Part shown: positions 2,574 to 14,336 of the stretch, piece after piece | Position numbering within the stretch: position 1 is the first letter of the stretch | Layout of the letters: every line of letters starts with the position of its first letter | The notes under the pieces: model-generated | Told to the model about the DNA's origin: nothing | The model's database searches: none | Seen by the model: only the letters and a program-made list of their open reading frames with translations | Position numbers and translations under genes: made by a program | Assembly (NCBI GenBank): GCA_016202645.1 | Contig: JACQOF010000072.1 | Coordinates: forward strand, 1 to 22,089 | Length of the DNA stretch: 22,089 bases | Reading direction: 5' to 3' | DNA from: a bacterium | GTDB taxonomy: Bacteria > Lindowbacteria > 2-12-FULL-62-27

Positions 2574-5450
2574 CTACTTCAAAGTGAGAATGTGATCCCG
2601 TAGCGCGCGGATTTGTTTTGGGGCGCTGCCGTCCAGCATGTCGGGAATGGGGGACTGGCCTTCGGTGAAGTAGGTCGGCATGCGGGTGCCGGGCATGAGC
2701 TGGTTGGGGTCGGAGAGCCAGTCGAGGATCCAGTCCGGGTTGAGGCGGGATTTGGCCATGGCGAGGTCCGGCGCCAGGTCGCCGGCGGCGCGGCCTTCCG
2801 GTTTCTGCCCGCCCACCACGTGGCATTTCATGCACTGCAGTTTGTCGAACATCACACCGCCCGCGGCCGCGAGTTCGGCGTTCGGGCGGTGATGGTCTTT
2901 GGGGCGATACACCGTTTGCACGTCGTCCATGGCCTGGAAGTACGTGATGATCGCGGTGGCTTCCTCGTCCGTGAATCCGAACGTCGGCATCCGCACATTC
3001 AGCCACGGGCGGATCGTGCCTGGATTTTTTAGAAATTCGTAGAGCCAGTATCCCTGAACTTTTTTGCCTTCTCCCCACAAAATCGGCGGCGCCAGTCCCG
3101 CGTCCTCCGTATAATACGCCCGGATGACGCCGTCGTGGCCGTCCATGGTGTGACACCCGTAACAGTTCCGGTCGCGGACCATCCGGCGGCCCTTCTCAAC
3201 CAGTTCTTCCCGGGCGCTCAGATGGCGACGGCGTTCCGGCCGCACCTGGTCCTTGGTGAGGGACAGAATGTGAATGACGAGTTTTTCGATCTGGTCCTCC
3301 GTGAAATCGAACTGCGGCATGCGGAGCTTGTCGAGTCGGTCCTTGATTTTGCCGTGATCGAAGGCTCTCGGGTCGGCGAGTTTCCTCCCGAACCATGCGG
3401 TACGGGTATGCTCGATGTCGTGGACCCCGCCGAAATCCAGTTTGTCGAGGTCCTTGCTTCCCTCCTCGCTCAGCTCCGTTCCGATGGGATTGGTTTTCTC
3501 GAATCCGGAAATGTCATGGCATCCAAAACATCCGTAGTGGCCGATCAACTTCTGCCCGGCCGCCACCCATTTTTCCCGCGGTTGCATGTCCCGCAGTTTG
3601 TCCGTGATGGCCGTCGACGTCATTTTGGCCGACCATGCGTCCCGGAGGATCGCGTCGACTTCCGTCGATTCTCCCTGGGGCGCCGGCGCCGCGTCAAACT
3701 CGCGATTTTTCAGGCCGATGAGATACGCCGTCACGTCCGCGGCCTCGGTCTCTGTCAGCCGGAGGCTCGGCATTTTGGTGTGCTCAAAATAACGCGTTGG
3801 TTCCCGAAGCCATGTGTAGAGCCAGTTTCTCGATGTGATTTTACTGCCGAGACCAGCAAGGTCCGGCCCGAAGCGGTCTTTGTCGGCGATCAGGCCCGGC
3901 TCGCCGGGATTTTGCGTGAGGGTGTGACAGCCGCGGCACCCGACCGACTCGAATAGTTCCCGCCCGCGCGCCGAATCTCCGGCGCCCGGCGCGTCGTCAA
4001 ACCGGGTGTGAGGTTTGCCCTGGTCGTAGAGATAGGCCGTGATCGCTTCGATCTCCGCGTCACTGCGCCGGACGTCTTCGGGCGCCGATGTATTCGACAA
4101 ATCAAAAAATCTCGGCATCCGGGTGGTGGGCCGGAAGGCCTTGGGATTTTTCAGCCATTTCTTGACCCACGCAGGCGATACTTTTTCCTGCAAGTGCGTG
4201 AGGGGCGGCCCGGGTTTTCTCAGTTCCGTAAATCCGACCGTCTTGTGACAGCCGTAGCATCCGTAATCCTCAAAGATCCTGCGGCCGGCGTTCAGGGCGG
4301 GGGCTTCTGGAATTTCGACGACTCCCTGGTGGCATTTCAGGCAGGAGGCTTCGACCTGATCGCCCGGAAGCATCAGGTAATCCCAGAGAAAATCCGAGAG
4401 GTGTTCGTGGTCGAGAGGTTTCCAGTGATATTTCTTTTTCCAGACTTTCAGGTCTTCCTCCGTTTTGGGCGTGTGCCCGGCGTCGAGGAAACTCAGGGCC
4501 TGGCCCGCGCCGCCGTGGCAGGCCGAGCATCCGAACCGGTCGAGGGGGTGTTTGGATTTGGATCCGACGAAGAGGTCGAGCCGGGGATGCGCCCGGAACG
4601 GCTGTTTGACTTCGTCGAGGTCATACCCGGCCTTGACGATGTTTCCCTCCCCGTCCCGCGTACTTTCCTTTTCGATCCCGAGGTGGCAGGTGTGGCACCG
4701 GTCGACTTTTTCAACCACGAGAAAATTATAATCGTCGTGGAGGTCCGGGAGAGGGACTTGCTGGATCTTGTTGGTCGGCGCGACGAAGTCGAGAATGGGC
4801 GCGTTCAGGAGGAACTTGAGGGGGCTTGGCGACAGTTTTTCGATTTTGGCCTGCAGGAGATTCCGATCCTTGAGCGCCCGGTCCAGGGCTTTTTTGAGCT
4901 GGTCCCGCCGTTCGGTAAACGCGTTCGCCCGGGTCTCGATGTCCTTGATCGTTGCCTCCTCCCTCATGAGTTCCTGTTTGGCGTCGAGGTATGTTTTTTC
5001 GAGAAGATCAAACCGCTGTTTGGCCACGGGGTCCGGCCCGTGTTTGATGTGTTCCTCGTACTGGAAGCGTCCGGCGTCGAGTTCGGATTTGGCGAAAGCC
5101 ATCGTCGTTTTTTTCTTCTCGATCCGCGCCTGAGACCGGTTCCGTTCATCGAGGATTTTTTCGTGTTCCGCGCGGTTCTGTTTGAGGCTTGCTTCCTCGG
5201 TTTTCAGATCCTGTTTCAGCTGGTTGATCTTGTCCTGGTCCAGCGTGCTTTGCACAGCCACGAGTTCCGCCCGCGCGCGTTTGCGTTCCTCCTTCTCGAA
5301 CTGCCGCTGGTATCCCTTCCAGTCCCGGTCGTAATCGTCCCAGGACATCCAGAGGATCACCGCGAGCATGGCGACGGCGGACAGGAAAAACACTTTGTGG
5401 ACCGCGTCCATGTCCCTGAAATATTTATCCGCCGGCGGTTTCTGGGCCAT
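2574..5450 (-). CDS. Membrane-anchored octahaem cytochrome c of a Rieske/cytochrome b complex
   Basis: This is the probable electron acceptor subunit of the quinol-oxidising complex encoded just upstream. The 958 residues start with a short cytoplasmic tail and one membrane segment (about 17-36), then a long charged coiled coil (about 45-205). Eight CxxCH haem sites follow: CHTCH 252, CSACH 308, CLKCH 370, CYGCH 398, CRGCH 505, CFGCH 641, CYGCH 763 and CMKCH 873. The last five each head a class-I-like cytochrome c domain with a downstream MP axial-methionine motif (RMPRF, KMPSL, RMPQF, RMPTF, RMPTY). The first three lack this and are probably differently ligated. The gene starts 2 bp after the cytochrome b gene stop, with no clear ribosome site, which suggests translational coupling. 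Similar large multihaem subunits accompany Rieske/b complexes in several phyla. The coiled coil is unusual and has no known role. Confidence 0.92.
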   Translation of the reverse strand: MAQKPPADKYFRDMDAVHKVFFLSAVAMLAVILWMSWDDYDRDWKGYQRQFEKEERKRARAELVAVQSTLDQDKINQLKQDLKTEEASLKQNRAEHEKILDERNRSQARIEKKKTTMAFAKSELDAGRFQYEEHIKHGPDPVAKQRFDLLEKTYLDAKQELMREEATIKDIETRANAFTERRDQLKKALDRALKDRNLLQAKIEKLSPSPLKFLLNAPILDFVAPTNKIQQVPLPDLHDDYNFLVVEKVDRCHTCHLGIEKESTRDGEGNIVKAGYDLDEVKQPFRAHPRLDLFVGSKSKHPLDRFGCSACHGGAGQALSFLDAGHTPKTEEDLKVWKKKYHWKPLDHEHLSDFLWDYLMLPGDQVEASCLKCHQGVVEIPEAPALNAGRRIFEDYGCYGCHKTVGFTELRKPGPPLTHLQEKVSPAWVKKWLKNPKAFRPTTRMPRFFDLSNTSAPEDVRRSDAEIEAITAYLYDQGKPHTRFDDAPGAGDSARGRELFESVGCRGCHTLTQNPGEPGLIADKDRFGPDLAGLGSKITSRNWLYTWLREPTRYFEHTKMPSLRLTETEAADVTAYLIGLKNREFDAAPAPQGESTEVDAILRDAWSAKMTSTAITDKLRDMQPREKWVAAGQKLIGHYGCFGCHDISGFEKTNPIGTELSEEGSKDLDKLDFGGVHDIEHTRTAWFGRKLADPRAFDHGKIKDRLDKLRMPQFDFTEDQIEKLVIHILSLTKDQVRPERRRHLSAREELVEKGRRMVRDRNCYGCHTMDGHDGVIRAYYTEDAGLAPPILWGEGKKVQGYWLYEFLKNPGTIRPWLNVRMPTFGFTDEEATAIITYFQAMDDVQTVYRPKDHHRPNAELAAAGGVMFDKLQCMKCHVVGGQKPEGRAAGDLAPDLAMAKSRLNPDWILDWLSDPNQLMPGTRMPTYFTEGQSPIPDMLDGSAPKQIRALRDHILTLK

Positions 5451-5452
5451 GG

Positions 5453-6532
5453 TCAGATGTTGAAGAAGTACTCGGTGATGGCGACGAAGTATTTGAGGTT
5501 AAACATCCACCGGCAGACCATTTTGATCGGCAGGAGCATCATCATCAGGAAATGAAACATGAAAACGTTGTACCGGAGCAGACCCATCTTGGCGTAAAAG
5601 TTCTTGAGGACCGTTTTGGCCAGAAGGATTGGCAGGACGAACGTGTATCCGGCAATCAGCGCGAGGCCCCAGATTTCCCTCGGCAGCCAGTGGGACGGCA
5701 TGCCGGTTCCCAGAATCTTGATGTAGATGATCTCGCTCAAGTTGATGTTCACCAGCGGCTCGACTTTGTGAACGTCCCAGAATTCGTACGGCCCGAAAAA
5801 GTTCCAGTTGGGGCCGCGGAAGAACGTCCCGAGCATGATCAGGGTCACCCAGAGAAACAGAAACCCGAAAAGATAAACCGTAATCGCCATTCTGCGATGT
5901 TTCAGCGTGTAGTATCCGACGCCCCGCGGGTTGATGTCCATGTAGGGAATGCAGATGAGCCCCGTGATGATGAGGGTCGGAAAGACGACGCCGGCGAGCC
6001 ACGGGTCGAAGTAGACCAGCATTTCCTGCAGGCCCAGAAAATACCAGGGCGCTTTGGACGGATTGGGGGCTTTGAAGGGACTGGCGGGTTGTTCGAGAGG
6101 CGCCTTAAGTTCAATGGACCACACCGTGAGGAGGACGCCGACGATGACCGCCGCCAGAAATTCGATGTAGACGAGGTCCGGCCAGACAAAGATCGTTTCA
6201 TTCCCCTCTTTTTCCACGGGCGGCAGTCCCCGTTCGATGCGTTCGTCGTTGATCGCGGCCTGTCGAAGGGCCATCCAGACGCAGAAGCCCGAGAGAAAGA
6301 GCATCATCGTGATGGGGACGTTGTCGGGTTTGGCGACGATGTGGCGGAAATTGTTGTCGAGGAGAGACACCGCGTAGAATACCACCGCCGCCAGCAAGAT
6401 GCCGCCGGCCACTGCCGGTCTCGAAAGGAGCCTGTAGTAATGGAGGACCAGAAAGAACAGGACCGCCACGAGCGGCAGAAAGATCGTCGGCGCCGCGAGG
6501 GTGTTGATGAGGTGCTTGAGGGTCTCGATCAT
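5453..6532 (-). CDS. Cytochrome b C-terminal half (subunit IV-like) with extra membrane helices
   Basis: This 359-residue subunit corresponds to PetD/subunit IV plus additions, with about eight membrane segments. Three lie before the part that aligns to subunit IV (near residues 13-31, 38-58 and 75-93). It should form half of the quinol-oxidation (Qo) site with Rieske. The Qo motif, PEWY in standard cytochrome b, reads APWY here (residues 161-164, in KAPWYFLGLQE), so the proton-accepting glutamate is missing at that position; E170 lies a little downstream. VWPDLVY (116-122) fits the start of the subunit IV domain. The gene follows the b6 half after a 97-bp gap that contains a large hairpin. 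Its own ATG has no ribosome site right before it; a GAGGAG lies at 6626-6631, far upstream. Confidence 0.9.
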   Translation of the reverse strand: MIETLKHLINTLAAPTIFLPLVAVLFFLVLHYYRLLSRPAVAGGILLAAVVFYAVSLLDNNFRHIVAKPDNVPITMMLFLSGFCVWMALRQAAINDERIERGLPPVEKEGNETIFVWPDLVYIEFLAAVIVGVLLTVWSIELKAPLEQPASPFKAPNPSKAPWYFLGLQEMLVYFDPWLAGVVFPTLIITGLICIPYMDINPRGVGYYTLKHRRMAITVYLFGFLFLWVTLIMLGTFFRGPNWNFFGPYEFWDVHKVEPLVNINLSEIIYIKILGTGMPSHWLPREIWGLALIAGYTFVLPILLAKTVLKNFYAKMGLLRYNVFMFHFLMMMLLPIKMVCRWMFNLKYFVAITEYFFNI

Positions 6533-6548
6533 GGTCTAAAATTCGCCA

Positions 6549-6618
6549 TTGGCTATTGGCTGTTGGCTATTGGCTCAACAGAATTGTGTTTGGCCAACAG
6601 CCAACAGCCATCAGCCAA
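6549..6618. repeat. Heptamer-built inverted repeat in the cytochrome b intergenic gap
   Basis: The left arm is four head-to-tail heptamers: TTGGCTA, TTGGCTG, TTGGCTA, TTGGCTC (6549-6576). The right arm (6593-6618) is the inverted series GCCAACA, GCCAACA, GCCATCA, GCCAA. The 26-nt arms pair at about 23 positions around an 18-nt loop. In the mRNA this would be a long stem between the b6-like gene and the next cytochrome b gene. The rest of the 97-bp gap holds the ribosome-like GAGGAG (6626-6631). Confidence 0.85.
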
Positions 6619-6625
6619 AAGCGCA

Positions 6626-6631
6626 CTCCTC
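6626..6631 (-). promoter_or_regulatory. Shine-Dalgarno GAGGAG separated from its gene by a hairpin
   Basis: The minus strand reads ATGAGGAGTGCGC across the stop codon of the b6-like gene. GAGGAG is the best ribosome site for the following cytochrome b gene, but that ATG is 94 bases further on, past the hairpin. A 14-codon reading frame starting with ATG at 6611 and stopping at 6567 lies in between. Folding of the hairpin could bring the site closer to the ATG; this is inference. Confidence 0.45.
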
Positions 6632-7445
6632 ATAACGGCTTGGAAAACTCGTCCGTCGGAGCGGAAATGCCGCCGTCCTTGCGGACGCGCCAGAAATGCG
6701 CCGCCATCAGAGTCGCGGCGGCGAGGGGGATGAAGACGCAGTGCAGGACATAAAATCTGAGAAGCGTGGCTTCGCCGACGAACGGCCCGCCGAGGAGCAC
6801 AAATCTCGCGTCGTCCGTCGCGTGGATGAGAGGGACGTCCTCCATTCCGAAGAGGCCGGGATTCAGAAGTTTTGATCCGGGGCCTTCGTGCCCGACAAAG
6901 GGCGTCGCGCGGGCCATGTTGGACCCGACGGTGATGGCCCAGATGGCGAGCTGGTCCCACGGGAGGAGGTAGCCGGTAAACGAGAGCAGGAGCGTGAGCG
7001 TGAGAAGCACGACGCCGATCCCCCAGTTAAATTCGCGGGGCGGCTTGTAGGAACCGGTCAAAAATACCCGGAGCATGTGCAGCCACACCGTGATGACCAT
7101 GGCGTGCGCCGCCCAGCGGTGAAGTTCGCGCATGATGCCGAGGGGCACGTGTTCCCGGAGGGCGAGGATGTCGTTATAGGCGTATTCGCCGACCGGCCTG
7201 TAGTAGAACATGAGAAGAACCCCCGTTAGGGTTTCGACGAGAAAGAGAAAAAACGTCAAACCGCCCATGCACCAGGTGTACGAGAGTTTCAGGGAATGGG
7301 AGGGGACTTTCGTGGGGTGCAGGTGCAAAAAGACGTTGGACAGAATGATGAGCACCCGGTTCCGGCGTGTATCGGGATATCCGTGCCGGATGATCGATTT
7401 CCAGACCTGCGAGTCCGTCACATACTTGGAAATATTAGACCACAT
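6630..7445 (-). CDS. Cytochrome b6-like N-terminal half of cytochrome b
   Basis: This is the dihaem membrane core of a Rieske/cytochrome b complex, 271 residues. Haem ligands are H109 and H123 in the second core helix (13 residues between) and H235 and H250 in the fourth (14 between, the b6 spacing). C59 in TWCMGGLT aligns with the cytochrome b6 cysteine that binds haem c(i) covalently, and FYYRP follows as in b6. An insertion of roughly 40 residues precedes the fourth core helix (about 176-222). The start is well supported: AGGAGGGG ends six bases before the ATG, and that ribosome site overlaps the Rieske stop codon, so the two genes are coupled. It differs from mitochondrial-type cytochrome b in being split from its C-terminal half. 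Confidence 0.94.
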
Positions 7446-7457
7446 GCCGCACCCCTC

Positions 7458-8042
7458 CTAGACTCTCAAAAAGGCTTCCGGGTCGGACCATTGACCCAGT
7501 TCGTGCTGAAATTTTTTGGATTTATCCACGAGAATCTGCCCGTCCTCCGCGAGAACGATCCGGTACCGTTCCAATGGCCGGGGCGCGGGGCCTTCGAAAT
7601 TAACGCCCGTGACATAAAACCCGGATCCGTGGCACGGGCATTTGTATTTTTGTTCGGCCTCCAGCCAATTCGGCTGACAGCCGAGGTGGGTGCAGACGGT
7701 GGAGAGGGCGTAGAAGCCTTCCTCGTTTCGCACGATCCAGAATCCGAATTTGTCCTTGAAGCGGACGTCCACCAGTCCGACCTGGAATTCCTCCGGAAGA
7801 CCGACTTTGACGCTGGTGGGCGGGATAAAGAGGACATTGGGATACAGGAACCGGACCGTCAGGATTTTCATCATGCCGACGCCCGCGAGGAACGCCGCCC
7901 ATGCGCCGACGAGCCACTTGAAAAACCCTCGGCGGCTGGGGGCTTCGGCGTCTACCTTCGGGGCCGGCGCTGTCGCGACGACCGGCGATTCGCCCGGCGT
8001 GAGTGTTGTCGCCGGTTTGGATGGCTGATTCTGTTCCGTCAT
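7458..8042 (-). CDS. Rieske iron-sulfur protein of the cytochrome b complex
   Basis: The protein carries a [2Fe-2S] cluster that takes an electron from quinol at the Qo site. The 194 residues include a proline-rich start, a twin-arginine signal-anchor (SRRGFF, 36-41) followed by one membrane helix (43-60), and the cluster motifs CTHLGC (117-122) and CPCHGSGF (135-142). Ligands are C117, H119, C135 and H138; C122 and C137 form the usual disulfide. The ATG at 8042 is chosen because AAAGG precedes it by about seven bases and because the 25 extra residues of the longer frame look unrelated to the family. It sits 31 bp after the HEAT gene and is followed directly by the b6-like gene. Confidence 0.95.
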   Translation of the reverse strand: MTEQNQPSKPATTLTPGESPVVATAPAPKVDAEAPSRRGFFKWLVGAWAAFLAGVGMMKILTVRFLYPNVLFIPPTSVKVGLPEEFQVGLVDVRFKDKFGFWIVRNEEGFYALSTVCTHLGCQPNWLEAEQKYKCPCHGSGFYVTGVNFEGPAPRPLERYRIVLAEDGQILVDKSKKFQHELGQWSDPEAFLRV

Positions 8043-8073: not shown

Positions 8074-8958
8074 TCAACGCGCCCGCTCCAGCGCCCCGCG
8101 CGCGGCCGCCTGGACATGTAAATTTGGGTCTTCGGCGGCCATCCGCCGGATTTTCTCTCGAAGGCTCTCGTCTTGAAACTGCGAGGCCGCCGCCAGCGCT
8201 ATCTTTAATATCTTTTCGACATTTGCCTCGTCAAGTGGAGGATTCTTTCCCAGTTCCGCCGTGAGGACCTCCCGGTCGAGCATCTGACCCAGGACCGGGA
8301 CCGCGGCCGGGTGGACGGATTCCGCGAGGCTCAAAGCGGCGTTCCATCGGACGTCGGAAACCGGATCATTGAGAAGAGGCGTGAGGGTGGATGCCAGTTC
8401 GGGATCGGATCGGAGAAACGGGCCGAAGAAATAAACAGCCGTTTTCCGGACTCCCGGGTCCCGGTCGTCAAGGGCCTCCGTGGCCGCCTCCAAGGCGCCC
8501 GCGGCTTTCATGTCCCGCAGGGCCAGCAGGGCGTAAATTTTCTCGGCGGCGTCGGCGCCCCGCACGATCTCTATGAGTTTGGGAACAGCCTCGGTGTGCC
8601 CCAGGCGGCCGAGGGTCAGGATCATATACTGGCGGATCTGTCCGGCGCCGGGCGAGCTCTGGTTCAGCATGCGTAAAATCTGCCGTCCGACCCCGGGTTT
8701 TTCCGATTCGTCGATCCGGCCGAGGTTGACCTGGTTGGCCAGCGCGAACGCCGCCTGCCACGCGCGGTGCGGGTTGCCGCTTTTGAGATCGTTCAGATAA
8801 TCCTGCGATGTTTTCCGTTCCGTCGTGAGGAAACTGAAACTGAGGTAGAGGCCGACGCAGAGCGCCACCACCAGCATCGGAAAAACAAACCACTGCAGTA
8901 AAATCCGCGGGCCGAATTTCGCCTCCTCCCCGCCATCCGGCGTCGGTTCCGGGTTCAT
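8074..8958 (-). CDS. Membrane-anchored HEAT-repeat protein between ccmB and Rieske
   Basis: The function is not known. The 294-residue protein has one N-terminal membrane segment (about 18-45), then a short linker and a helical-repeat domain. HEAT/PBS-lyase-like units are visible as recurring pieces such as GHTEAVPKLIEI, DRDPGVRKTAVYFFG and DPVSDVRWNAALSLAE. Such repeats usually bind other proteins. Its ATG overlaps the ccmB stop (ATGA), and Rieske follows after 31 bp, so it links the cytochrome-maturation and bc-complex parts of the operon. It may be an assembly factor or a structural subunit of the complex. It occupies the place where ccmC usually follows ccmB. The longer frame to 9243 is rejected because it runs through ccmB. 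Confidence 0.85.
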   Translation of the reverse strand: MNPEPTPDGGEEAKFGPRILLQWFVFPMLVVALCVGLYLSFSFLTTERKTSQDYLNDLKSGNPHRAWQAAFALANQVNLGRIDESEKPGVGRQILRMLNQSSPGAGQIRQYMILTLGRLGHTEAVPKLIEIVRGADAAEKIYALLALRDMKAAGALEAATEALDDRDPGVRKTAVYFFGPFLRSDPELASTLTPLLNDPVSDVRWNAALSLAESVHPAAVPVLGQMLDREVLTAELGKNPPLDEANVEKILKIALAAASQFQDESLREKIRRMAAEDPNLHVQAAARGALERAR

Positions 8959-9614
8959 GCGCGTCCCAGAAGTTTTCCGAAACTCAATGCCCCGACAACG
9001 GCGACCGCGATGTCCGTCGCGAGCAGGAGTTTCAGATAATGGACCATCGGCTCGCCCGCCCAGGCGAGACTCGATCCGATGGATGCCGCCGCCAGGACCG
9101 GCAGGGCCATCGGGAGAATGAGAATGGGGAGTCCCAAACTGGCGCCGACGCCTTTCCAGGCGAACGTGACCGTTCCAAAGAGCGTCATGAGACAGGCGAG
9201 CGCCGCGTTGGCCGTCAGGCACAGGCCCAGCGCCGAGGGCCATGCCGGCGCGAAGGGAAGATTAAAGAACAGGACCAGGAAGGGAAACAGGAAACACTGG
9301 ATCAGGCAGAGGATCGCAAATGCGGCCAGGCTTTTTCCGGCGAAGACCCGTTCCGGCGCGGCGGCCGACAGCGCCAGAAAATAGGGCGTTCCGGAACGTC
9401 GGTCCCTCGCGAGGCGCGCGTTTTCCGACAGAATACCCGCGAAGAAAGCGGAGACAAAGAATGCGGCGAACGAAATTTCCGGCAGGGCCGCCAGGTGCGC
9501 CGGAAACGCGAGGGCTTGAGTGAGGAGGACGAGGAACGCGAAGAGGAGTGACGTCACCCATGCGGAAGGGCTTCGCCATTCTATTTTAAATTCAGCGGCG
9601 GCGATTTCAGTCAT
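8955..9614 (-). CDS. ccmB: Haem exporter membrane subunit CcmB
   Basis: CcmB is the membrane partner of the CcmA ATPase in system I cytochrome c maturation. The 219-residue protein has about six membrane segments and the family's early motif region (SENARLARDRRSGT, near residue 63) followed by PERVFAGKSLA. The length is normal. Its ATG overlaps the ccmA stop (ATGA) and its stop overlaps the HEAT gene start (ATGA). The CcmAB pair is thought to drive release of haem-loaded CcmE from CcmC, yet no ccmC is in this window. Confidence 0.92.
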   Translation of the reverse strand: MTEIAAAEFKIEWRSPSAWVTSLLFAFLVLLTQALAFPAHLAALPEISFAAFFVSAFFAGILSENARLARDRRSGTPYFLALSAAAPERVFAGKSLAAFAILCLIQCFLFPFLVLFFNLPFAPAWPSALGLCLTANAALACLMTLFGTVTFAWKGVGASLGLPILILPMALPVLAAASIGSSLAWAGEPMVHYLKLLLATDIAVAVVGALSFGKLLGRA

Positions 9615-10234
9615 GACAGAAGTTTCCCGCCGCGCAGTTCCACCAAGATCGGCGAGATATCCGGCATAATTTTTCGGTCGTGCGAAGCGATCACGATCGC
9701 GCGGTCCGGGGACCTTAGGGCGCGGAGGATGGCCGAGAGAGTTTGGATGCCTTCCGGATCGACGTTTGAAAACGGCTCGTCCATCAGCAGGAGGCGGGGT
9801 CCGGGCAAAACGGCGCGTGCGAACGCGGCGCGTTGGATCTGTCCGCGCGACAGGGCGCTCACCCGTTTCGCGGCGTGCGGTCCGAGGCCCACCCGCTCGA
9901 CGGCCTCACGGGCCTGATCGGCGGGATCAGGCATGCCGCTAAGACGCGCGGCCAGTTCCAGGTTCTCAGTCACGGTGAGGTCTTCGTAGAGAAAAGGCTG
10001 ATGTGCGAGAAATCCGACGCTCGGCAGTTTGCCGTTTGCCGCGGAGACGCGCCCTGAAGTCGGGATGAGAAGCCCCGACATGGCCCAAAGGAGCGTGCTT
10101 TTGCCGGCGCCGTTTTCTCCGGCCAGAAGCGTGACGGACCCGGCCGACAGGACAAGATTGACATTATCGAGGGCGAGGGTTCTTCCGAACCGGACTGACA
10201 GGCCGTCGATTCGGAGGATGGGACCATCGGTCAT
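9611..10234 (-). CDS. ccmA: Haem exporter ATP-binding subunit CcmA
   Basis: This is an ABC ATPase of 207 residues, the usual CcmA length. It has Walker A GENGAGKST (about 39-47), a Q-loop in LAHQPFLYEDLT, the signature ALSRGQIQRAAFARA (LSRGQ, as is common in CcmA, rather than LSGGQ), Walker B LLLMDEP and the switch histidine in ASHDR. It lies between the signal-peptide/TM unknown and ccmB, joined to both by ATGA overlaps, which fixes its identity better than similarity alone. Confidence 0.94.
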   Translation of the reverse strand: MTDGPILRIDGLSVRFGRTLALDNVNLVLSAGSVTLLAGENGAGKSTLLWAMSGLLIPTSGRVSAANGKLPSVGFLAHQPFLYEDLTVTENLELAARLSGMPDPADQAREAVERVGLGPHAAKRVSALSRGQIQRAAFARAVLPGPRLLLMDEPFSNVDPEGIQTLSAILRALRSPDRAIVIASHDRKIMPDISPILVELRGGKLLS

Positions 10235-11118
10235 GGGCCAAGGCCGCGGAGGCGTTCCATGAGGGATTTCTTTTTCCGCTTGTAATAGTCCCCCGGTATT
10301 TCTTTTTTTTCGGCCGCTTCGTCGATCGCTTCGATCTCATCCATCAAAAACCGCCGGAACTCGGCCGTCGACGCCCGCCGTTTTTTGAGATTCAGACCGT
10401 ACGCGAAAATCAGGACGGCCAGGATCGCGCCGGCGATGGAGGGATACAAATACAACCGCGCTGCGGAACGGGCCGGGATTGGCGCGCCGCCGAGCGGTTG
10501 TCCGCTTTCCATGCCGGCTCCGTCCCGGCGTTCGGGCTGGCCGGCGAGTGCCTCGTGCGCTCCCTCGAATACAATGTCGATGGATTCTCCCGCCTTGAGG
10601 TCCCGTCCCAGAATCCGGTAGCCGTCGTCCGCCGGTTCGACCTCCAGCCGTCGGGACGTCACGTTCCGGACTTTTGGGGCGAACGCGGCCAGAAGAAACG
10701 TCGGAATCAGAACGTCTTTTTCAATCTTCACCGAATCGTCCGGCCCGGCCGGGATGACGTAGCCGAACGAAAACGTATTTTTTCCAGAGGCCAGCCGCCG
10801 CTTGATCAGGATGCGGCCGGCGGATATTTCCATTTCCTCGTCGCGCAGAGCGGGTGCCTGCTCCGCGCCCGGCATGATGGGCGGAACGGGCATGCCCCGG
10901 ACCCGTTCAGCGTTTTTCGGGATGGCCAGTTCGAACGGCGTCGAGTGTTCCGATTCAGCCAGAACGACAACGATCTCCTGAATGCCGCAGACGACCCGGC
11001 CTTCGTCGTGCCCGAATTCGAAAAAGAGATGGTTCTGGCGGATGTTAAGATCCGCCGCGCCGGTCGGGCCGGCCATGCCGAGGATCCACGTCGCTAGGAC
11101 GCACGCAAGCTGTTTCAT
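10231..11118 (-). CDS. Secreted, membrane-anchored protein of the ccm operon, unknown function
   Basis: I do not recognise a named family. The 295 residues show a signal peptide (1-21, cleavage likely near GAA), a periplasmic region of mostly beta character (22-215), one membrane helix (about 222-242), and a charged cytoplasmic tail. The tail (252-292, with EIEAIDEAAEKKEIPGDYYK) resembles the helical pair near the start of CcmI and similar proteins, where an acidic helix, a turn and an alternating Tyr/Arg/Lys helix are seen. It is coupled by ATGA overlaps to the ccmI-like gene before and ccmA after. A role in haem delivery or apocytochrome handling is inference from context. The single periplasmic cysteine, C44, is in RVVCGIQEI. 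Confidence 0.8.
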   Translation of the reverse strand: MKQLACVLATWILGMAGPTGAADLNIRQNHLFFEFGHDEGRVVCGIQEIVVVLAESEHSTPFELAIPKNAERVRGMPVPPIMPGAEQAPALRDEEMEISAGRILIKRRLASGKNTFSFGYVIPAGPDDSVKIEKDVLIPTFLLAAFAPKVRNVTSRRLEVEPADDGYRILGRDLKAGESIDIVFEGAHEALAGQPERRDGAGMESGQPLGGAPIPARSAARLYLYPSIAGAILAVLIFAYGLNLKKRRASTAEFRRFLMDEIEAIDEAAEKKEIPGDYYKRKKKSLMERLRGLGP

Positions 11119-11522
11119 TTGGGATTTTTCGAACCGTCATTCCCGCGAAAGCGGGAATCCAGTCTGCTTTGCAATGGGTCTGGATGCCCGCCGGAGTTTA
11201 CCACGTGCTGGATTCCCGCTTTCGCGGGAATGACAGACCTGAGGTTGGCATGATGACCTGAATCGTTATGATTTTTCAAGGATTCAGCGAGTTCCGAGAC
11301 GATCTGACCTCGGATTGAATCGTGGTCTTCCCGGGAGAGTTTTCCCGCCGCGAAATCAAAATCGAGTTCCCGGATGGCGACCGCGGAGCGTTCCGACTGC
11401 TCCGCCGATCCCTCCGTGCGTTCGCCGGCGTCGAGGCGCGGCAGATCAGCGCGAAAAGCCAGCAGGAGATACAGCAGGGACGCGGCGGTGGTCAGCGTCA
11501 AGATTACTTCGAGGAATTCCAT
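11115..11522 (-). CDS. Short CcmI-like membrane protein with a repeat-derived insertion
   Basis: The 135 residues contain one N-terminal membrane segment (5-23) and the CcmI-type motif RELDFDFAAGKLSREDHDSI (51-70), which in full-length CcmI precedes the TPR domain. No TPR is present. Residues 97-129 are encoded by a 99-bp REP pair (11136-11234) and include the tell-tale stretches VIPAKAGI and SRFRGND. Without it the protein would be about 102 residues. The stop still overlaps the next gene's ATG (ATGA). The start lies inside the end of the CcmH-like gene (19-bp overlap), with GAGGAG upstream; the longer frame to 11816 is a shadow of that gene. Confidence 0.8.
   Translation of the reverse strand: MEFLEVILTLTTAASLLYLLLAFRADLPRLDAGERTEGSAEQSERSAVAIRELDFDFAAGKLSREDHDSIRGQIVSELAESLKNHNDSGHHANLRSVIPAKAGIQHVVNSGGHPDPLQSRLDSRFRGNDGSKNPK
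11136..11234. repeat. Inverted pair of REP-like GAAA hairpins inside ccmI
   Basis: Two perfect 8-bp palindromes in opposite orientation, 11139-11158 and 11212-11231, each ATTCCCGC/GCGGGAAT around GAAA or TTTC. The element begins GTCA and ends TGAC, like the pair at 126-204, but the inner part is different (99 against 79 bp). Its edges fall exactly on codon boundaries of the ccmI-like gene. Confidence 0.9.
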
Positions 11523-11962
11523 TTGTTCAGCCACTCCTCCGCTTTTTTCAAGTCGGCCCCCAACGGTTTCGGCCGGGCGACCTCCGCAATCTGCGACCGC
11601 CGCCATCCCCGCGCAAGGGCCACGACGATCGCGGCGCCGGCCAGGACCGCCAAAGGCGGCAGGACGTAGGCCAGAAGGCCGAACCCCCGCGCCGGCGGCG
11701 ATGCCAGAACGGTCGGACCGTACTTCTCCACGAATTTCTCGCGGATCTGCGTCCGGGACAGACCGCCGGCCTGAAAGTCCGCGATCTCCTTGATGTAAAT
11801 CGCGGCGTCCGAACACTCGCAGACCTCAAGCGCCTTGCCGCACAAATCCGGGCAGGGACACATGAAATCGGATACCATATTCCCGTCGTCGGCCACGGAC
11901 GCGCCGGCAAGGCATATCCAAATGAGCAGGGCCATGAAACCAAATACAATCCGCAATTTCAT
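11504..11962 (-). CDS. CcmH-like protein with a five-cysteine motif
   Basis: CcmH reduces apocytochrome cysteines and helps present them for haem attachment. The 152 residues have a signal peptide (1-24), the cysteine region (33-50), a three-helix-like segment, and a C-terminal membrane helix (about 94-117) with a cytoplasmic tail. Later parts match the family: GGLSRTQIREKFVEKYGPTV and SPPARGFGLLAYVLP. Instead of one CxxC it shows C35, C37, C41, C48 and C50 (MCPCPDLCGKALEVCEC). I recall similar Cys-rich CcmH variants in other phyla, but the chemistry is not settled. The ATG at 11962 is chosen because it overlaps the ccmF stop (ATGA) and begins the signal peptide. Confidence 0.87.
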   Translation of the reverse strand: MKLRIVFGFMALLIWICLAGASVADDGNMVSDFMCPCPDLCGKALEVCECSDAAIYIKEIADFQAGGLSRTQIREKFVEKYGPTVLASPPARGFGLLAYVLPPLAVLAGAAIVVALARGWRRSQIAEVARPKPLGADLKKAEEWLNKWNSSK

Positions 11963-13905
11963 GACTTTCCAGGCCACAAACAGAGAACCGCGCCCGCGGC
12001 CAGAACGGCCCCCCCGAGCCAGACCCAGCTTACGAGGGGATTGACGTAGACATGTAAAATCGCCGCGCCCTCGGCGGTCCATCCCGCAAGGACCACGTAG
12101 AAATCGTAAAACACGCGCGAAATCAGGCCTGTCTCGGTATGGGGCTGTTCCGTTTTCTCATAGAGCCGCTTTTCGGCAAAGATCCGGCCGATATTTTTTT
12201 CGGCATCGAAAACATCCACTGTGGCCCGGACCCACGTCGCGTTCGGCAGGCGGCCTTCGGTGAGTCCCCGCATGATCAGGCGAAACCGTTCAATCCGCAT
12301 CTCCTGGCCGGGACCCAGTTCGGCTTCGCGATGGACCTGGTACGACGACGAAGCGATGATCCCGAGGGCGGTCACGGCCACGCCGGCGTGGATGATGTAC
12401 CCGCCGTAGCGCCTACGGTTTTTCCCCATGAGCCGGACCAGGGCCGGCAGGAAAGATTCCTTCGTGGACCTCTGCCGGGCCCGCGTGTCCCGGATGAATT
12501 CGAGAAGCAGGCACCCGAGAACGAACACCACCGACCCGATTCCCGCCAGCGCTTTGGGCTGATTCACTCCGCCGGCCCACAGGAGGCCGACAGCGAGGGC
12601 CGCGCCCAGGAGAGGCGCCAGGAAATTTTTCAGGAGCTGACCCGGCGACGATTTTCTCCATGCGATCGTCGGCCCGATACCCGTGAGAATGAGAAGCGCC
12701 AGAAAAAGCGGAATGGTGACTTGGTTGAAAAACTGCGGCCCCACGCTGATCCGGGTGCCCTTGACCATTTCGAAGAAGGTCGGAAACATCGTTCCGAAGA
12801 GGACCGCGAAGGCCAGGCCCAACAGGACCACGTTGTTGAATAGGAAAACCGCCTCCCGGGACAGAAAGGATTCGATCCGGTGTTCGGCCTTGAGCGCCGG
12901 GTATCGCCACACGATCAGCCCGAACGCGAAGACCGCCGTCAGGCCGATGAACGCGAGAAAAATCCCGCCCAGGAGCGGCTGACGCGCGAAAGAATGGACC
13001 GACGCCACCACGCCGCTGCGGGTCATGTAGGTGCCGAAGATCGTCAGGAGAAACGTGAGGGAGATGAGCGACATGTTCCAGATTTTGAGCATGCCCCGCC
13101 GTTCCTGGATCATGACCGAGTGCAAAAAGGCTGTGGCCGTCAGCCATGGAATGAAGCTCGCGTTTTCGACCGGGTCCCACGCCCAGTAACCACCCCAGCC
13201 CAGTTCGTCATAGGCCCAGCGCCCTCCAAGCATAATTCCGATCGCGAGGATCGTCCATGAGAAAATCGTCCACACCCGGCATTTTTTAATCCAAGCCGCG
13301 TCAAGCCGGCCCGTGATGAGCGCGCCCATGGCGCAGGCGAAGGGTACCGTCATCCCGACGAATCCCGTATAGAGCATGGGCGGGTGAATCGCCATCGCGG
13401 GGTGCTGGAGGAGCGGGTTGAGGCCGTTTCCGTCCGGCGGCGGCGAGTCGAGACGGGTGTAGGGGTCCGAGGCGACGTTTACGATGATGAGAAAAAAAAG
13501 CTGGACCGCGAGAAGAACAAATCCCGTCGCGTGAAAGTGAATGTCCCCCCGTTCGATCCGGTGGACCGCCATATAGGCGGACGAATAGACCGCCAGCACA
13601 AACAGCCAGAAGAGCTGGGAGCCCTCCTGGCCGGCCCAGAGAGCGGCGAGCCGGTATCCGGCGGGAAGATTGATGGAGGAATAGGACGCGACATAGCGGA
13701 TGGAAAAATCATTCACAAAAAACGCGTAGACGAGGATCCCGGTGGCCGCAAACACGAGAGTGCTCGACAGCATCAGGCTCCGGCGCTGAAACTCCAGGCA
13801 CGCCAGATTTTTTTTCCAGAGGCCAACCGCGCCGATCAGCGTTCCCAGCGCCGCCACGGCGAAATCAAAGCGCATGGCCCACTCGCCGAGGTAGGTCAGG
13901 CTCAT
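11959..13905 (-). CDS. ccmF: Cytochrome c haem lyase subunit CcmF
   Basis: CcmF takes haem from CcmE and, with CcmH, attaches it to CxxCH of apocytochromes. The 648-residue polytopic protein has the WWD domain (237-250, WGGYWAWDPVENAS) and flanking histidines such as H168 and H174 in QHPAMAIHPPMLY and one in FLHSVM, the expected haem ligands. Length and motifs are normal for CcmF. The ATG at 13905 is used because it overlaps the ccmE stop (ATGA) and begins with MSLTYLGEWA, which resembles other CcmF starts; the 15 extra residues of the longer frame belong to ccmE. It is followed by the CcmH-like gene with another ATGA overlap. Confidence 0.95.
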   Translation of the reverse strand: MSLTYLGEWAMRFDFAVAALGTLIGAVGLWKKNLACLEFQRRSLMLSSTLVFAATGILVYAFFVNDFSIRYVASYSSINLPAGYRLAALWAGQEGSQLFWLFVLAVYSSAYMAVHRIERGDIHFHATGFVLLAVQLFFLIIVNVASDPYTRLDSPPPDGNGLNPLLQHPAMAIHPPMLYTGFVGMTVPFACAMGALITGRLDAAWIKKCRVWTIFSWTILAIGIMLGGRWAYDELGWGGYWAWDPVENASFIPWLTATAFLHSVMIQERRGMLKIWNMSLISLTFLLTIFGTYMTRSGVVASVHSFARQPLLGGIFLAFIGLTAVFAFGLIVWRYPALKAEHRIESFLSREAVFLFNNVVLLGLAFAVLFGTMFPTFFEMVKGTRISVGPQFFNQVTIPLFLALLILTGIGPTIAWRKSSPGQLLKNFLAPLLGAALAVGLLWAGGVNQPKALAGIGSVVFVLGCLLLEFIRDTRARQRSTKESFLPALVRLMGKNRRRYGGYIIHAGVAVTALGIIASSSYQVHREAELGPGQEMRIERFRLIMRGLTEGRLPNATWVRATVDVFDAEKNIGRIFAEKRLYEKTEQPHTETGLISRVFYDFYVVLAGWTAEGAAILHVYVNPLVSWVWLGGAVLAAGAVLCLWPGKS

Positions 13906-14336
13906 TTCCGGGTTGGCTCGGCCAAACCCACTTCGTATTTGGACGGACACTTGGCCTGAAGAAGACTCGCGTGAAAAACACGGCCGGCGGCGTCGTAGGT
14001 TCCTTCAACCGCCGCCTGGGCGCCTTCCCGAAACGCGTCCGGCCGGACGCCCGTGTACTCGATCAGCACGGTCTCCGATGCCTCGTCGATCAGGCCGAAC
14101 CGGATCGACACGTCCCCCGGCCCGTCCAACTCGATCCCCCCGTAGGCGACCTTCCCCGCCACGCGGACCCTCCGGTCGGAAAGCTCGGGCAGTTCCCGGG
14201 CGTTCACATAGGGCAGCTGCGTGCCGCCAATGGATGAAATCACCAGATACAAAACAGCGCCGGCCGAGAGTGCAATCCACCCCCACACACGCCGCCCTGG
14301 TTTTCGCGGGGTTTCAGCGTTCACGGGGCCCATCAT
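13902..14336 (-). CDS. ccmE: Haem chaperone CcmE, cysteine (CxxxY) type
   Basis: CcmE carries haem covalently from CcmC to CcmF. The 144-residue protein has a short cytoplasmic start, one membrane anchor (18-35) and an OB-fold periplasmic domain with family pieces VRVAGKV, VLIEYTGVRPDAFREG and AVEGTYD. The haem-binding site, HxxxY in E. coli (H130), is CPSKY here: C130 and Y134. Natural CxxxY CcmE proteins are known from archaea and Desulfovibrio. This is the first gene of the long minus-strand run. Start is ATG 14336 or 14333; no strong ribosome site is seen. Upstream, TTGATC and TATGAT 16 bp apart (minus strand) might be a promoter, but it would leave almost no leader. Confidence 0.92.
   Translation of the reverse strand: MMGPVNAETPRKPGRRVWGWIALSAGAVLYLVISSIGGTQLPYVNARELPELSDRRVRVAGKVAYGGIELDGPGDVSIRFGLIDEASETVLIEYTGVRPDAFREGAQAAVEGTYDAAGRVFHASLLQAKCPSKYEVGLAEPTRK

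Follow-up and report, generated by a model that had tools for sequence, protein, structure and literature searches.

A probable System I* cytochrome c maturation operon joined to a bc-type complex operon in Candidatus Lindowbacteria

What kind of cytochrome c maturation (Ccm) machinery is encoded by an operon in which CcmE has a Cys where the haem-binding His is expected, CcmH is rich in Cys, ccmC and ccmG are absent, and two uncharacterized membrane proteins stand among the core genes? The operon lies on the minus strand of a 22,089-nucleotide stretch of Candidatus Lindowbacteria DNA, here called the window, in the order ccmE-F-H-I-X-A-B-HEAT-Rieske-cytochrome b, followed by a gene for a c-type cytochrome; X and HEAT denote the two uncharacterized proteins. 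A sequence-only reading had taken this arrangement for a variant Ccm system in which the two proteins stand in the place of the absent components. We assign a probability of about 0.8 to another interpretation, namely that the locus joins a System I* cytochrome c maturation operon to that of a bc-type complex. It is of the known System I* kind, in a poorly known phylum, and not a new kind of system.

We compared three Lindowbacteria genomes of the same family, the window's own (G000) and two sister genomes (G001 and G002), and found that the order from ccmE to cytochrome b is kept in all three. The genomes belong to three genera, so identical gene order across them can be neither coincidence nor faulty assembly. 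The ATGA coupling that the sequence-only reading had stressed was confirmed, with overlaps of this type at the junctions ccmE-F, F-H, X-A, A-B and B-HEAT. That reading did not list a short CcmI-like ORF (11115-11522), which encodes a TM segment with cytoplasmic helices and matches an HMM of CcmI-like tails (E 2e-9), with no Pfam and no TPR match. The window also holds five copies of a dispersed inverted-repeat element (TCCCGCGAAAGCGGGAATCCAG), among them those at 11141-11229, 131-199 and 2543-2564; the CcmI-like ORF, which ends in SRFRGNDGSKNPK, owes its final ~40 codons to one repeat pair. The remaining core genes were readily assigned. ccmF (11959-13905; PF16327, E 6e-67; PF01578, E 4e-33) encodes the haem lyase, in which neither the WWD motif nor the conserved His varies among the three Lindowbacteria genomes; a search for CcmF in viral contigs found none. 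ccmA (9611-10234) encodes an ABC ATPase that matches PF00005 and also TIGR01189, the latter at E 2e-32 and below its cut-off, and ccmB (8955-9614) matches PF03379 (E 3e-16).

The gene for the haem chaperone CcmE occupies 13902-14336 (PF03100, E 5e-19). Residue 130 is its only Cys and is followed by Tyr at 134, so that the protein carries the CxxxY motif C130-P-S-K-Y134 (13935-13949), as the sequence-only reading had correctly recognized. The surrounding KCPSKYEV is identical in both sister genomes, and the HxxxY motif of canonical System I is replaced, with Cys occupying the His column. Neither a His-type CcmE nor any second CcmE was found elsewhere in the window's genome, which is an assembly of 146 contigs; because this assembly is 82% complete, absences from it are weak evidence. 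Across the domain, PF03100 matches at or above its cut-off were spread over 125 of 386 genomes. Typing of the His column in 113 genomes gave 89 with Cys (C-type) and 24 with His (H-type), so C-type CcmE is not rare, nor is it restricted to archaea and Desulfovibrio. The H-type proteins form a single clade in the CcmE tree (support 100/98). The CxxxY variant was named System I* in a 2011 review, which gives CPSKY as its majority motif (PMC3601427). By analogy with Desulfovibrio work covered in the same review, we infer that haem would be bound covalently to Cys130.

Neither ccmC nor ccmG is present in the window's operon, as the sequence-only reading had stated. A genome search with PF01578 returned four places, corresponding to CcmF, a CcmC on another contig (C145), a CcsA (C98) and a HemX-like protein beside hemA. 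The C145 protein matches TIGR01191 with E 2e-29, below the model's cut-off, shares 30-38% identity with CcmC from ccm operons elsewhere and retains both the WWxW region and the conserved His. Its gene sits between pheT and an inositol-phosphatase-like gene, and occupies the same place in G001; in G002, ccmC is present in two pieces. The description 'no ccmC' is thus true of the operon only, and CcmA, CcmB and CcmC, which belong to System I*, are all encoded, with ccmC unlinked. We accordingly rejected HEAT or X as a replacement for ccmC. Inspection by eye of the surroundings of ccmC revealed no obvious CcmD. DsbD and several thioredoxins are present in the genome; of the Redoxin matches, the one that was scanned is TlpA/ResA-like and reached 43 bits against the DsbE/CcmG model TIGR00385, for which the cut-off is 123. 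The same genome carries a System II pair on contig C98 (L011:1991-3567, plus strand), consisting of a ResB-like CcsB (PF05140) and a CcsA (TIGR03144, E 4e-70). The pair lies near hydrogenase-like genes, and the organism thus carries both maturation systems.

The HEAT protein (P0008; 8074-8958; PF13646) is real and conserved, but its assignment to the Ccm machinery was not supported. Patterns of its conserved peptides matched in Lindowbacteria only. Homologues were nevertheless found directly upstream of Rieske-cytochrome b genes in G175 (E 3e-34; 28% identity over 286 residues, including the TM segment), G028 (E 1e-28; 22% identity) and G188 (E 5e-11), and these three genomes gave no CcmE or CcmH match. 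To judge from these homologues, the HEAT protein belongs with the Rieske-cytochrome b pair of the bc-type complex and not with Ccm, and it probably helps to assemble or stabilize that complex. The HEAT gene thus accompanies the genes of the bc-type complex, and its overlap with ccmB marks the place where two operons meet. The literature we searched on HEAT proteins with Rieske proteins, mostly non-subscription, held nothing relevant. The bc-type complex itself (2574-8042) comprises a Rieske iron-sulphur protein (7458-8042; PF00355), a cytochrome b split into an N-terminal part (6630-7445; PF00033, PF13631) and a C-terminal part (5453-6532; PF00032), and a 958-aa c-type cytochrome subunit with eight CxxCH motifs (2574-5450; PF00034). 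The best NCBIfam model for the cytochrome b is ExtP of the selenite/tellurite operon, at 274 bits with a cut-off of 290. The adjacent eight-CxxCH cytochrome is likely the obvious client of the ccm operon.

System I* was reportedly described in 2006 as having no CcmH, and the sequence-only reading had built on the premise that CxxxY systems lack it. This premise was not upheld, as roughly a third of the bacteria that have this CcmE also have CcmH, whose absence is therefore not characteristic (PMC3601427); we dropped absence of CcmH as a mark of System I* for this reason. In archaea, CcmH is nearly absent (PMC4429474; PMC9084895). The window's ccmH (11504-11962) exceeds the PF03918 gathering score of 25 with 40 bits (E 3e-10), and its AF2 model (pLDDT 86.6) matches the solved CcmH structure 2HL7 with Z 6.7 over 66 aligned residues (rmsd 3.9). 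In place of LRCxxC it reads FMCPCPDLCG...CEC. The five Cys noted earlier (C35, C37, C41, C48 and C50) are there, forming a CxCxxxCxxxxxxCxC cluster (11813-11860) that is invariant across the three Lindowbacteria genomes; a further Cys, C17, lies in the signal anchor.

To place this protein among other CcmH proteins, we sorted CcmH by simple motif patterns in genomes with both ccmE and ccmH, counting each combination of taxonomic family and class once. H-type CcmE was partnered by an LRCxxC CcmH in 15 of 15 family entries, and C-type CcmE in 1 of 46; the sole exception, G058, also carries a Cys-rich CcmH. The other C-type entries were Cys-rich (24), SPxCPG (8), APCCW (8), MCxxC (4) and unclassified (1, G087). 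The association of CcmH class with CcmE type has a Fisher p of 2e-13, a descriptive value only, as it takes related lineages as independent. As H-type CcmE is one clade, the coupling reflects few evolutionary events, and both this coupling and that of X described below may stem from one old split rather than from functional dependence. In a 27-row alignment of Cys-rich CcmH, with rows picked for belonging to that class, four Cys are invariant and the fifth is nearly so. The window's spacing, CxCxxxCxxxLxxCxC, recurs in G007/G294, G058 and G119. By these alignments the multi-Cys CcmH is a broad class. Its pairing with C-type CcmE, singled out earlier as a combination worth describing, does join the two in many lineages, but C-type CcmE with CcmH had been published by 2011. 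That CcmH classes follow CcmE type is undescribed as far as the accessible literature shows; a search of mostly non-subscription literature for Cys-rich CcmH gave nothing relevant.

Several further CcmH variants came to light. Two families combine C-type CcmE with a near-classical CcmH of the form L[ML]CPVC[EA]GxxVA[ED]S (L149, L150, L155 and L158-L160, in G213, G342, G072, G077, G219 and G348), and these are possible intermediates between the CcmH kinds. G109 encodes a second CcmH-like Cys-rich protein (FMCSCGTCTEALSTCEC) near its ccm genes (L084:1970-2575). In G133, G248, G375 and G346 (L198, L204, L205 and L179), long open frames of 844-1007 aa carry the CcmH domain at their C-terminus; here CcmH is probably fused to a further Ccm protein, CcmF for instance.

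Protein X (P0005; 10231-11118) has no family in Pfam or NCBIfam. Its AF2 model (pLDDT 88) shows a periplasmic beta domain (residues 24-186), a low-confidence linker, and a TM segment with helices (224-292); the charges flanking the TM segment place the CcmI-like tail in the cytoplasm. Neither a single-sequence contig search nor an X profile run against 386 genomes found X outside Lindowbacteria. A 46-residue match was seen in G100, a genome that later yielded an X-family member, and weak matches in ccm loci lay just downstream of ccmH/ccmI. The wider family was found after iterative searching of about 100 ccm neighbourhoods. An HMM built without Lindowbacteria sequences matched X and its two orthologues with E 1e-12, the value for X, to 1e-21 over the beta domain and tail (positions 108-365), and hhalign gave 99.1% over 234 columns between X and the unnamed ccm-operon family. 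These two tests are not wholly independent, because the seeds came through weak X matches; the other family members were found without use of X. Profile comparison places X, though divergent, in a widespread and unnamed family of ccm-operon membrane proteins; its identity to members outside Lindowbacteria is about 12-20%. A CarboxypepD_reg-like domain (PF13620) is present in 9 of 17 relatives and missing from the N-terminus of X. In G185, one family member (L097:6070-7842; a 591-aa frame with two HMM matches) has an apparently duplicated beta domain.

We next asked how this family is distributed. Counting as strong the matches with E below 1e-20, plus the three Lindowbacteria, a scan of 356 genomes found members in 41 of 115 genomes with CcmE and in 1 of 241 without. 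Strong members occurred in 37 of 83 genomes typed C and in 0 of 24 typed H, or by taxonomic family in 29 of 67 and 0 of 15 (p 8e-4, with no correction for phylogeny); more than half of the C-type genomes thus have no X. Among H-type genomes, G152 has a short X relative in its ccm locus, and weaker matches lie elsewhere in G081, G222 and G351. The sequence-only reading had suggested looking for co-occurrence of the two partner genes and the Cys-rich CcmH with CxxxY CcmE. Such a link was found in C-type loci for the Cys-rich CcmH and for the X family, but not for HEAT, which goes with Rieske-cytochrome b. Neither of the two findings that the reading itself had named as refuting it turned up in the strict sense: the window's genome yielded no His-type CcmE, and the H-type genomes yielded no strong X-family member, the relative in G152 being short. 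Protein X, CcmI-like tail included, is real and conserved, and its family is linked to C-type CcmE, but it does not stand in for ccmC. The family is undescribed as far as the accessible literature shows, and is worth naming.

The holding of apocytochrome is ascribed in proteobacteria to the TPR domain of CcmI. From its architecture and co-occurrence, X may dock on CcmF/CcmH through its CcmI-like helices while the beta domain holds the apocytochrome, a role that we propose tentatively. The resemblance of the modelled beta domain to ribophorin I and to the N-domain of M1 aminopeptidases (Z 10-12) would indicate fold, not function. We also considered X as a replacement for the TPR part of CcmI. 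Because short CcmI ORFs occur with H-type CcmE too, CcmI length fails to separate the CcmE types, and this idea was kept as a guess at mechanism only. More broadly, it is possible but doubtful that the X family represents an unrecognized subunit of the System I* synthase, in which a tail-tethered beta domain would present apocytochrome to CcmF and the multi-Cys CcmH would be matched to Cys-bound haem.

Other explanations of the locus must be set against these readings. A new, streamlined Ccm variant, having lost ccmC and ccmG and recruited HEAT and the TM protein to the machinery in their stead, would fit the ATGA overlaps that tie ccmB to HEAT and X to ccmA as well as the gene order conserved in three genomes. 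We consider it very improbable, since ccmC is present in the genome and in both sisters, HEAT homologues accompany Rieske-cytochrome b where CcmE is absent, and ordinary C-type operons such as L105 contain ccmC together with an X relative. The operon might instead be specialized for a few cytochromes, for instance the eight-CxxCH subunit, with CcsBA maturing the bulk. The CcsB and CcsA genes on contig C98 and the joining of the ccm and bc operons speak for such a division of labour, which nevertheless seems unlikely to us given that CcsBA lies near hydrogenase-like genes rather than adjoining c-type cytochromes and that a clear System II match was found in G000 and G001 only.

Two further alternatives concern single proteins. 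X could be no maturation factor at all, serving the bc-type complex or another cytochrome and sitting in ccm operons by co-regulation. Although the two operons are joined in Lindowbacteria, other lineages have X right after ccmH/ccmI with no bc genes, CcmE is present in 41 of the 42 genomes that gave strong X matches, and the X tail resembles CcmI, all of which makes this quite unlikely. For CcmH, the extra Cys could bind a metal (zinc or iron-sulphur) in a structural or regulatory role instead of serving as a thiol relay. The CxC...C...CxC arrangement of four invariant and one near-invariant Cys in 27 sequences does resemble metal-binding clusters, but the cluster sits at the position of the redox motif of classical CcmH. 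Moreover, the SPxCPG, APCCW and MCxxC proteins of other C-type partners have just two Cys, so a metal site would answer no general need; we regard it as rather unlikely.

In System I, CcmC and CcmAB load haem on CcmE, which delivers it to CcmF, while the CxxCH motif is kept in its reduced form by CcmH and a thioredoxin (PMC3601427, PMC3884852). Transferred to a System I* operon joined to bc genes, this scheme would have the unlinked CcmC, with CcmAB, load haem covalently onto Cys130 of CcmE, which would pass it to CcmF. CcmH, supplied by DsbD and a TlpA/ResA-like thioredoxin, would keep the apocytochrome CxxCH reduced, its extra Cys perhaps serving as an additional thiol pair or as a relay. 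X would be docked on CcmF/CcmH by its cytoplasmic helices, with the periplasmic beta domain holding the apocytochrome, and the c-type subunit of the bc-type complex would be matured by the adjoining ccm operon.

Most of what is known of System I comes from E. coli and Rhodobacter, where CcmE binds haem through His and CcmH carries LRCxxC. Across our lineage-spread sample this His version is one clade and a minority; the Cys type is commoner, is accompanied by CcmH classes of its own and often goes with an unnamed membrane protein. Should X and the Cys-rich CcmH turn out to be necessary, the breaking of the Cys-haem bond and the handing on of haem would become testable with named parts. If our reading of the X family is true, System I would consist of two mechanistically distinct halves, the less studied of which would be the more widespread across lineages.

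How, then, does the locus compare with known systems? The Rieske-cytochrome b operons of G175, G028 and G188 likewise have the gene of a TM-anchored HEAT protein of the same architecture directly upstream, but those genomes have no CcmE match and no ccm genes upstream. The predicted fold of X is alike to that of the M1 aminopeptidase N-domain and ribophorin I (OST1), with VIA Z 10-12 over ~150 residues (rmsd 3-4), although identity is 8-16% and X has no catalytic domain. The unnamed ccm-operon family agrees with X in beta domain, TM segment, tail and place beside ccmH/ccmI, and differs in the CarboxypepD_reg-like domain often found at its N-terminus. Canonical System I of E. coli and Rhodobacter shares the core proteins, the WWD of CcmF and the CcmH family and fold (2HL7/2KW0); unlike it, the window has Cys for His in CcmE, no LRCxxC, a short CcmI-like ORF without TPR match, and X. 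With System I* of archaea, Desulfovibrio and other bacteria, the locus has in common a CPSKY CcmE, CcmF, CcmA, CcmB and CcmC, and no classical CcmG was found; to this known system, the window adds a five-Cys CcmH and protein X, with ccmC unlinked.
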